NCBI GenBank assembly: GCA_028751875.1
Contig: CM054140.1
Span: forward strand, 8,167,847 to 8,231,846
Reading direction: 5' to 3'
DNA from: Rapana venosa
Taxonomy: Eukaryota; Mollusca; Gastropoda; Neogastropoda; Muricidae
DNA length: 64,000 bases
Shown piece after piece: positions 32,112 to 35,176 of this stretch. Made by a program: the position numbers and the translations under genes. The notes below the pieces were generated by a model that saw nothing but the letters and a program-made list of their open reading frames with translations, was not told the DNA's origin and ran no database searches. Position 1 is the first letter of the stretch, and each line of letters opens with the position of its first letter.

Positions 32112-32236
32112 GTGTACTCAGATCAAGACTCATGCCTGGAGCAATGCCTCCGTGCTGCTTGCGGGCAACAAGTGTGACCTAGAGAGCGCCAGGGTGATTG
32201 ACGAAGCCCGGGGCCAGGACTTGGCCCAAGTCTTAG
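32112..32236 (+). CDS. Rab3: Rab3 alternative exon A (variant residues 116-156)
   Basis: A 125-nt open exon with acceptor TTGGCAG|G and donor TTAG|GTAGGC. It encodes CTQIKTHAWSNASVLLAG, then NKCDLESARVIDEARGQ and DLAQVL. It aligns without gaps to exon B: 25 of 41 residues identical. It keeps the G4 guanine-specificity motif NKCD and the tryptophan of helix alpha3. The changes cluster in the alpha3-beta5 loop (YSWDNAQ becomes HAWSNAS) and in the segment after NKCD. In Rabs this loop is part of the effector-contacting surface (RabSF3), seen in the Rab3A-rabphilin structure. I infer a functional mutually exclusive exon with altered effector choice. An inactive relic is less likely because frame, phases and both splice sites are intact. 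Confidence 0.85.
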
Positions 32237-35051
32237 GTAGGCTGGCTGGCTGGCCGGGTGGCTGCTGGTGGCTTGCACCCGCCCTGTTTCCTTCATTCCC
32301 CCCTTGCCTCCTTCCACGCACTGTGCTGGATACCTCGGGCTGTAGTTTATAAAACGCTAGTTTGGTTTTTTCCTCTCTTTTATCTGAGGTCTTCTCTTTG
32401 TGTGTGTGTGTGTGTTTGTGTTTTTTCAAGGTCTCTAGCTCTTTCTGTAGACCTTTATGATGGGGAAGCTAGTGTTTTCTCTTTTATCAGAGGTCTTCTC
32501 TGTGTGTGTTTTGAAGGTCTCTGCTCTTTCTGTAGATCCTGGTGGTGGGGTAGGTTCTATTATCCAGTTGACATAATGCCTCATAGAGAGAGGGAGAGAG
32601 GGTAGTTTGGGTTTGTGGTCGTCTGATTGTGCCCTTGCCATAGAAGCAGATGTTTGTTAGTTATGCTGTGAAGATGTTCAGCAGCTGAGTTACTGTGCTT
32701 ATCTTCTTGCAAGGAAATTGATTTTTTGGGGGGGTGTTTTTTTGGTTTTAATCATCTTCAGATTTTGCTTGAGATAATGTGGTGATTTGTTGTTATCGTT
32801 CTTTGTGCAAGTCTAAGCAGGGCAGAAAAGAAAAAGACTTGAGATGTAGAAGTTGCTTTGTATTTAATTAATGACATCAATGGGGTTGGGGTGGGGTTTT
32901 TTTGGGGTGGGGTGGAGGGGGGGGGTTCCTTATTTCCAATCCAGTGACATTGCTTGTTGTTGGCATAAAACAGGATTCAACTTCTTGTAGATTGGTTTTT
33001 ACTGTCTATGAAAGTTCACAGTATCAAAATTTTGATTGACCAATTAACTCTGTTGATAATAATAATCTTTATCATAATAACAATGTATGGAATTAATATA
33101 GCACTGAACCTATTCATTATGACATGCCCCATACCCACAATGCCACCTTTATAGTGGGATATCTGCATGTCATTGTTTGTAGTGTCCTGTTATTGTGAGC
33201 ACACTACAGAAGACAACAAGCCACGGCAAGGGAACAAAAGAGAAGACTACTACACAAAACTTTAACCACTCCCCATCCTCCTCCTTTTATGTTTTTATTT
33301 TTTTATTTCTATGAGGCAATATGCAGCTCTGGACCAAAGCCTGGGCCAAATCATGGTATACCTTTCCCCCAGGAAGAAACCAGCCCAGCCCACTATAGCT
33401 GAAAGCCTAGTTTTTACTGGGTTTTTTTTTTAGAACGGGAGTTGACCCCATGTTCATCTCTTTTTGCCCCCCACTAACCGGTGCTTGGGAATGCTTGTCC
33501 TGCTCTTTGTTTTTGGCTCCTAACAGCAGCAGCTTCAGCAGCAGATTTGGCGGATCTAACGCATGCTTACTAACGTCACATGCTACTGCAGGATCGGCCA
33601 AGCTGTAGAATGCTTCAGGTTGTGACATACATAACATACGTACAGTTATCAGCTGGCTGGCGGTTGTTGTTTATTAACCTATGGACGTTTCTAGTGTTGT
33701 GTCTGGGGTCTGAATGACTGTGTTGTCTGGCGCATGCTGGGGAGACACACAGGCCTGCCCTGCATCACCGCGGTGAAGGAGAATACACAGACATGTCTGA
33801 GCGCTGCCCAGGCTTTACACACTGGAATCAAAGGCTTTCTTCCTCATGCCTGCCACGCTTCAACACTGCTCCTGAAGCTACTGTCACGAGTGGTGGTGGC
33901 AGTAGTGTGGAGTTGTGGCAGTGCTGTCAGGAGTGGTGGAAATACTGTCAGGAGTGGTTGTGGCAGTGCTGTCAGGAGTGGTGGTGGCAGTGCTGTCAGG
34001 GTGGGGGTTGTGGCAGTCTGTCAGGAGTGGTGGTGGCAGTACTGGCAGGAGTTGGGGGTGGCAGTCTGTCGGAGTGGTGGAATACTGTCAGGAGTGGTGG
34101 TGGCAGTCTGTCAGGAGTGTGGTGCAGTCTGTCAGGAGTGGTTGGTGGCAGTACGGGCAGGAGTTGGGGTGGCAGTCTGTCGGGAGGGGTGGAAATACTG
34201 TCGGAGGGGTTTGGTGGCATTTACTGTCAGGATTTGGTGGTGGCAGTCTGTCAGGAGGGGGGGTAGGTGGCAGTCTGTCAGGAGTGGTAAAAATACTGTC
34301 AGGAGTGGTGGAAATACTGTCAGGAGTGGTGGTGGAAATACTGTCAGGAGTGGTGGTGGAAATACTGTCAGTTGTGGCAGTACTGTCAGGAGTTGTGGCA
34401 GTACTGTCAGTTGTGGCAGTACTGTCAGTTTTGGCAGTACTGTCAGGAGTGGTTGTGGCAGTACTGTCAGTTGTGGCAGTACTGTCAGGAGTTGTGGCAG
34501 TACTGTCAGGAGTGGTGGTTGAAGTACTGTCAGGAGTGACAGTTGCAGTGCTGTCAGTAGTGGTGGCAGTGCTGTCAGGAGTGGTGGCAGTGCTGTCAGG
34601 AGTGGTGGAAATACTGTCAGGAGTGGTGGTGGCAGTACTGTCAGGAGTGGTGGTGGCAGTACTGTCAGGAGTGGTGGTGGCAGTACTGTCAGGAGTGGTG
34701 GTGGCAGTACTGTCAGGAGTGGTGGTGGCAGTACTGTCAGGAGTTGGTGGCAGTACTGTCAGGAGTGGTGGCAGTGCTGTCAGGAGTGGTGGCAGTGCTG
34801 TCAGGAGTGGCAGTGTGGCCAAAGTATTGCAGTGTGGCAATACTTTTGAGGAGTGGCAATACTTTTCAGGAGTTGTGGCAGTATTGTCAGGAATGGCAGT
34901 GTGGCAATATGTCAGGAGCGACAATACTGTCAGGAGTGGCAATTCTGACAGGCGTGGACGGCATTGTCGGGTGTCTGAAGGGGGTGTGTGCGCAGCATAC
35001 AGTCCGAAGCGTGGGGGGCTAAGGGCGTGTGGGTGTGCTAACTGATTGCAG
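32237..35051 (+). other. Rab3: Intron between the two alternative Rab3 exons
   Basis: Contains T/G-rich runs (32725-32940), a SINE-B tail fragment near 33056-33110 and a 1.1 kb minisatellite. About 32950-33870 is otherwise plain unique DNA. The 3' splice site has no strong pyrimidine tract; a branch-like CTAAC at about 35037 is unusually close to the AG. Confidence 0.8.
33878..34978 (+). repeat. 1.1 kb minisatellite, GTCAGGAGTGGTGGTGGCAG
   Basis: Roughly 45 units of 18-24 bp varying in the number of GTG triplets (GGTGGTGGCAGTACT, GTTGTGGCAGTACT, GGTGGAAATACT). Most unit lengths are multiples of three, so several frames stay open for hundreds of codons on both strands; these are not genes. 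The array ends about 75 bases before exon B. Confidence 0.95.
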
Positions 35052-35176
35052 GTGCACGCAGATCAAGACCTACTCCTGGGACAATGCCCAGGTGGTGCTG
35101 GTGGGCAACAAATGCGACCTGGAGGACGAGCGCGTGGTGTCCGCTGACCGGGGCAAACAGCTAGCTGACCAGCTAG
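35052..35176 (+). CDS. Rab3: Rab3 alternative exon B (canonical residues 116-156)
   Basis: A 125-nt exon with acceptor GATTGCAG|G and donor CTAG|GTACCT. It encodes CTQIKTYSWDNAQVVLVG, NKCDLEDERVVSADRGKQ and LADQL, the canonical animal Rab3 sequence. The G4 motif NKCD is at residues 134-137. Entry phase 2 and exit phase 1 are identical to exon A. Splicing A to B would shift frame and reach a TAG at 35162-35164. Splicing the previous exon straight to 41812 reaches a TGA after five codons. Only one of the two exons can therefore be used per full-length mRNA. Confidence 0.96.

Follow-up and report, generated by a model that had tools for sequence, protein, structure and literature searches.

A duplicated alternative exon pair in a Rab3 gene of Rapana venosa predicts two proteins likely to differ in effector binding

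The Rab3 locus and its two homologous exons

The window analysed here (a 64-kb stretch of the Rapana venosa genome, taken as a whole) carries on its plus strand a Rab3 gene in which five coding exons could be read, two of them (exons A and B) being alternatives to each other (Table 1). The initial annotation had assigned this gene to Rab3, the principal Rab of both synaptic and secretory vesicles, and the assignment is borne out by comparison with solved chains, as the best matches of the window protein (Rab-3C, Rab-3B, Rab-3 (4rkf), and RAB3A (3rab)) are all Rab3-type. Both the A form and the B form have the features of a Rab3 GTPase, namely a Rab3-like G domain, which the Pfam Ras family covers (204.9 bits for A and 213.5 bits for B), NKxD and SAK motifs, and a Cys-x-Cys end. 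A second gene nested in the locus was also considered and is unsupported: within the window, genome searches matched only exons of one Rab3 gene. Window positions 59527-59829 hold a single exon, the sole copy found in the genome, which we take to belong to a hydroxypyruvate-isomerase-like gene.

Table 1. Predicted coding exons of the window Rab3 gene, with residue identity to the counterpart exons of a second Rab3 gene on C17 of the same genome
Feature	Position in window	Strand	Content	Identity to C17 counterpart
Coding exon 1	25521..25745	+	MASANDAKW...KLQIW; donor GTCAGT; predicted from open frame and splice join	98.7%
Coding exon 2	28906..29024	+	DTAGQERY...AVQD plus TG; phase 2 end	100%
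Alternative exon A	32112..32236	+	125 nt; CTQIKTHAWSNASVLLAGNKCDLESARVIDEARGQDLAQVL	71%
Alternative exon B	35052..35176	+	125 nt; CTQIKTYSWDNAQVVLVGNKCDLEDERVVSADRGKQLADQL; Rab3 form common to animals	97.6%
Last coding exon	41812..42002	+	SAK motif, Cys-x-Cys end, stop codon	92%

Exons A and B had been proposed to be homologous alternatives of identical length, and each element of that proposal was recovered: both are preceded by CAG and followed by GT, the upstream exon ends with TG (phase 2), and A and B both end after the first base of a codon (phase 1). Their alignment is free of gaps, with 25 of 41 whole-codon residues identical (27/43 when the two split codons are counted), 82 of 125 nucleotides shared, and NKCD present in both. 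When the exon-B form (from exon 3 on) was compared with the window by tblastn, exon A was found at an E value of 4e-14, and the next matches, which are unrelated, have E values of at least 3; the likeness of A and B thus exceeds chance. The frame consequences are as the initial annotation had described them: a transcript using neither exon reads W-S-G-I-L-stop, one using both meets the stop codon TAG at 35162, and either exon alone keeps the frame open to the Cys-x-Cys end. From this reading frame, we infer that splicing in Rapana venosa would pick one exon per transcript.

The duplication is old, because the flanking introns bear no trace of it and the two exons have diverged considerably (dS 1.04 and dN 0.33). 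In the 200-nt flanks of A and B, no likeness beyond that of shuffled sequences was detected, the observed scores being reached by 155/200 and 65/200 shuffles. A recent copy or an assembly artefact is ruled out by these unlike flanks together with a dS of about 1. Much of the intron between A and B is occupied by a 24-bp minisatellite of approximately 42 copies (window 33879-34810).

A second Rab3 gene and the spread of exon A among animals

When the 2.28-Gb genome was searched with the A form (exon 2 and onward), another Rab3 gene, complete in its coding exons, came to light on C17 (33.233-33.246 Mb). Exon A again precedes exon B, both are 125 nt long and in frame, and the frame fails with both exons or with neither, as in the window; tandem homologous exons of equal phase and length, of which exactly one keeps the frame (the pattern of mutually exclusive duplicated exons), are therefore found in both genes. 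Between the two genes, exon A has a dS of 1.56 and a dN of 0.172 (ratio 0.11, bootstrap 0.01-0.27). The corresponding dN/dS ratios are 0.02 (exon 1), 0.01 (exon B), and 0.08 (last coding exon), and in exon 2 dS is saturated and the amino-acid sequence unchanged. Exon A evolves faster than exon B, yet it is under purifying selection and is thus kept as coding sequence in both genes.

In the tree of exon sequences, window exon A groups with that of Nucella (98/91) and C17 exon A with that of Babylonia (93/76), and thus the separation of the two Rab3 genes probably predates the split of these snails. Such an early separation is what a whole-genome duplication in the ancestor of Neogastropoda would predict; one has been reported in a cone snail and suggested for that ancestor (PMC8152183). 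The C17 gene may have arisen in this way; given that the exon near 59.5 kb is present in the genome as a single copy, the grounds for such an origin lie in the cone-snail event only.

The initial annotation had called for a search for the second exon copy in other molluscs and had staked the pair on an open frame of exon A in close relatives. A-type exons were found in gene models of at least 14 mollusc species, and the frame is kept in the relatives examined as well as in the C17 gene. Three protein searches yielded 175 proteins among the matches listed, clustered at 90% identity, which hides isoforms, and these listings carry no weight on the absence of exon A in annelids or cephalopods. An A-type exon (THAW or THGW) is present in 19 of the 175 proteins among the matches listed, 17 of them being named entries that represent 16 species. 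The species, at least 16 in number, are 14 molluscs, one brachiopod, and one bryozoan: at least nine gastropods (Batillaria, Littorina, Babylonia, Nucella, Pomacea, Gigantopelta, two Haliotis, and Patella), at least four bivalves (Saccostrea, Pecten, Ylistrum, and Mizuhopecten), and, also among the matches listed, the chiton Liolophura, the brachiopod Lingula, and the bryozoan Watersipora. In 12 of these 16 species the exon comes with an isoform label from NCBI (X1, X2, or X3), and the exon A nearest to that of the window, again among the matches listed, is that of Nucella lapillus (81%).

Phylogenetic analysis placed the 19 A rows in one group apart from 22 other Rab3 rows (support 98/94), in a tree built from 42 columns under the simpler LG+G4 model, with an unsettled bootstrap. 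For this tree, the Physella gap in the alignment was set by eye and padding was added to the second of the rotifer copies; three rows were excluded, namely P0102, which is two residues longer, P0121, which is partial, and P0002, which shares its species with P0126. Because the A rows form one group, the simplest reading is that exon A arose once, before these phyla split.

Several models deserve mention in their own right. P0126 (Batillaria) and P0127 (Nucella) each hold A and then B within one model, in the order seen in the window; these are probably annotation errors that still place both exons in one gene. P0122 (Pomacea), P0126, and P0127 fuse A to B or run out of A into other sequence, and automatic annotation seems to have been misled by the exon pair. 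A model from the bdelloid rotifer Didymodactylos carnosus (P0169) has the corresponding Rab3 exon twice in tandem, each copy reading YSWDNAQ and neither having A-type residues, which looks like a separate duplication of this exon.

A much changed alternative exon occupies the same place in Physella acuta isoform X2 (P0094) and in P0102 (QIKLHTCYN and QIKIHACSQ, respectively), with flanks that are ordinary snail Rab3 in both. The tryptophan of RabCDR2 is gone in both exons, the Physella exon has SKSD in place of NKCD, and that of P0102 has two extra residues. The histidine at position 122 suggests that this divergent exon of heterobranch-like snails descends from exon A. In the free tree, Physella lies on a very long branch beside Lingula within the A group, and a tree keeping the 19 A rows together without Physella was not rejected (p-AU 0.273). 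Nucleotide binding may be altered in the Physella alternative form.

Exon choice and the fate of other splice products

Two contigs from other samples carry a whole Rab3 frame with the alternative exon: P0016 (219 aa on a 4173-nt contig), whose alternative exon is scallop-like, and P0102 (221 aa on a 1444-nt contig), whose flanks are snail-type and nearest to Physella and Biomphalaria. Considering that the introns of the window gene measure kilobases, these contigs fit spliced RNA that includes the alternative exon alone; they could also represent retrocopies. The source label 'lgn' probably stands for assemblies of archived reads.

Under the usual 50-55 nt rule of nonsense-mediated decay, the wrong splice products of the window gene may escape degradation, judging from where their stop codons fall: with both exons included, the stop precedes the final coding junction by 15 nt in the window and by 78 nt on C17, and with both skipped, it falls past this junction in both genes. 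By the frame rule, exon combinations other than A or B singly would be useless as Rab3, and decay of such RNAs would not be assured.

The intron between A and B is 2815 nt long in the window and 877 nt on C17. Introns of these lengths are too long for simple steric exclusion, and hence the exon is likely to be chosen by splicing factors. A comparison of the two genes by blastn (plus strand, E up to 0.01) revealed no conserved intron element beside A or B, similarity reaching only about 10 nt past either exon. The other intron matches between the window and C17 were at 39240-39452, 35667-35737, 27069-27137, 40975-41044, and 25361-25387. The longest of these, 39240-39452, belongs to a repeat family represented on both strands of the 64-kb window by more than 15 additional copies, and it is matched in the corresponding C17 intron too. 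A decoy donor (GTGAGT, 32089-32094) just upstream of exon A was dropped from consideration, being absent from the 90 nt upstream of exon A on C17. The pyrimidine content before the acceptor is low for both A (0.38) and B (0.48), which is uninformative because that of constant exon 2 is low too (0.43).

The exchanged residues and their possible meaning

In a protein built with exon A, the exchanged part would comprise the end of helix alpha3, the alpha3-beta5 loop together with strand beta5, and the stretch that follows NKCD; NKCD itself, the SAK motif, and the prenylation end would stay unchanged. The initial annotation had pointed to the alpha3-beta5 loop as the effector-contact region changed, and this loop indeed corresponds to RabCDR2/RabSF3. 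Here Y122-S123-W124-D125-N126-A127-Q128 becomes H-A-W-S-N-A-S. The change is largely uniform across species: H122 is found in 19/19 A rows and A123 in 18/19, residue 125 is S or P in all 19 A rows and D in 20 of the 22 other Rab3 rows, and N126 is retained in 16 A rows and replaced by S in three. W124, NKCD, and an open frame are present in every A row (19/19). At residues 122, 123, 128, and 141, no letter is common to the 19 A rows and the 22 other rows. Two AlphaFold models, with mean pLDDT values of 42.3 and 35.3, were set aside.

Rab3A has been described to contact rabphilin both with its switches and with a pocket that is formed by three RabCDRs and accepts the SGAWFF element; RabCDR2 corresponds to RabSF3 (PMC9308819). 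In fly Rab3, W124-D125-N126 are the CDR2 residues that were chosen as rabphilin contacts, and of these three, exon A of the window alters D125 only; a form carrying alanine at all of WDN124-126 showed normal localisation and gave full rescue of the active-zone phenotype (PMC4552854). The loss of charge at D125, together with the changes at 122, 123, and 128, could retune the CDR pocket for SGAWFF of rabphilin-type effectors, and such retuning would leave the nucleotide switch untouched. Given the full rescue by the alanine form, CDR2 may not matter for the active-zone role in the fly. Exon A thus alters a known effector pocket in a conserved way, with a predicted effect that may be nil for the fly active zone. 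Taken together, we favour the reading that this Rab3 gene contains a duplicated alternative exon pair and that the two predicted proteins likely differ in effector binding.

We consider it rather unlikely that, in a real and alternatively spliced pair, what the choice of exon adjusts is stability, localisation, or the contacts made with exchange factors or GAPs, by way of the segment following NKCD (likely helix alpha4), instead of effectors at CDR2. Many of the differences between A and B do lie after NKCD, including that at residue 141, and the CDR2 alanines were without effect on the fly phenotype scored (PMC4552854); however, the most uniform A-specific residues (H122, A123, and S/P125) sit in CDR2, and the later segment varies freely among A rows. 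That exon A is a copy of B in decay or out of use, rarely or never spliced in, appears highly improbable: its faster divergence between the two genes (71% residue identity versus 98% for exon B) and its poor handling in models P0122, P0126, and P0127 would fit such a fate, but they are opposed by purifying selection, by the open frame and intact NKCD of all A rows, by whole frames with the alternative exon on the 4173- and 1444-nt contigs, and by the isoform labels in 12 of the 16 species among the matches listed. Equally hard to credit is a mimicry of CDR2 by which exon A would let Rab3 read Rab27-type or Rab8-type effectors, for which the change of Y122-S123 to H-A (compare HAYCEN in Rab27A and HASADV in Rab8A) and the bryozoan exon (VVLCGNKCDMDDQRVV, against IVLCGNKSDLEDQRVV in Rab27A) could be cited, whereas across the whole exon such mimicry is unsupported, A rows being no closer than B rows in mean identities to Rab27A (16.7 for 19 A rows, 17.5 for 11 B rows, and 15.3 for 11 others), in mean scores against it (76.9, 86.5, and 83.2), or in mean identities to Rab8A, which are about equal (15.4, 15.3, and 14.6).

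The reading of an exon pair that affects effector binding can be set against known systems. RAB6A and RAB6A' of mammals arise from a duplicated exon pair, which probably lies at another position than the Rab3 pair. RAB6A, too, is a Rab gene with a splice event of the substitution type that is conserved, human and mouse having homologous events, but the RAB6A forms are nearly alike, with a local identity of about 96% even for wrong pairings (PMC1950890), unlike the Rab3 exons, which share 25 of 41 residues and differ in a RabCDR. Vertebrates likewise have several Rab3 forms per animal (Rab3A-D), but as separate genes and not by exon choice, and the Rab3B and Rab3C chains both read YSWDNA at CDR2, implying that this loop is not what separates them. 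The pair is another case of the known duplicated-exon kind, unusually old and well conserved. The initial annotation knew of no description of it for Rab3, which agrees with the open-access literature searched (titles and abstract starts of the papers listed), where no description of a Rab3 exon pair was found; the exon as such is not new to databases, as NCBI Rab-3 models (X2/X3 in molluscs and Lingula, X1 in Watersipora) contain the same A-type exon under automatic labels.

More tentatively, it is conceivable that exon A provides an ancient second Rab3 identity, whereby lophotrochozoans divide Rab3 by exon choice and not by gene duplication, one locus serving two vesicle classes or release modes via effectors that read CDR2 differently, and that the alternative exon sped ahead in heterobranchs. 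As reported, the fly study found no need in the animal for the RabCDR residues tested (PMC4552854). Exon A amounts to a natural exchange of a single RabCDR in an otherwise constant protein, retained in at least three phyla and, within one genome, in both Rab3 genes, and if it is expressed as predicted, mollusc neurons would be a ready-made test of the role of CDR2.
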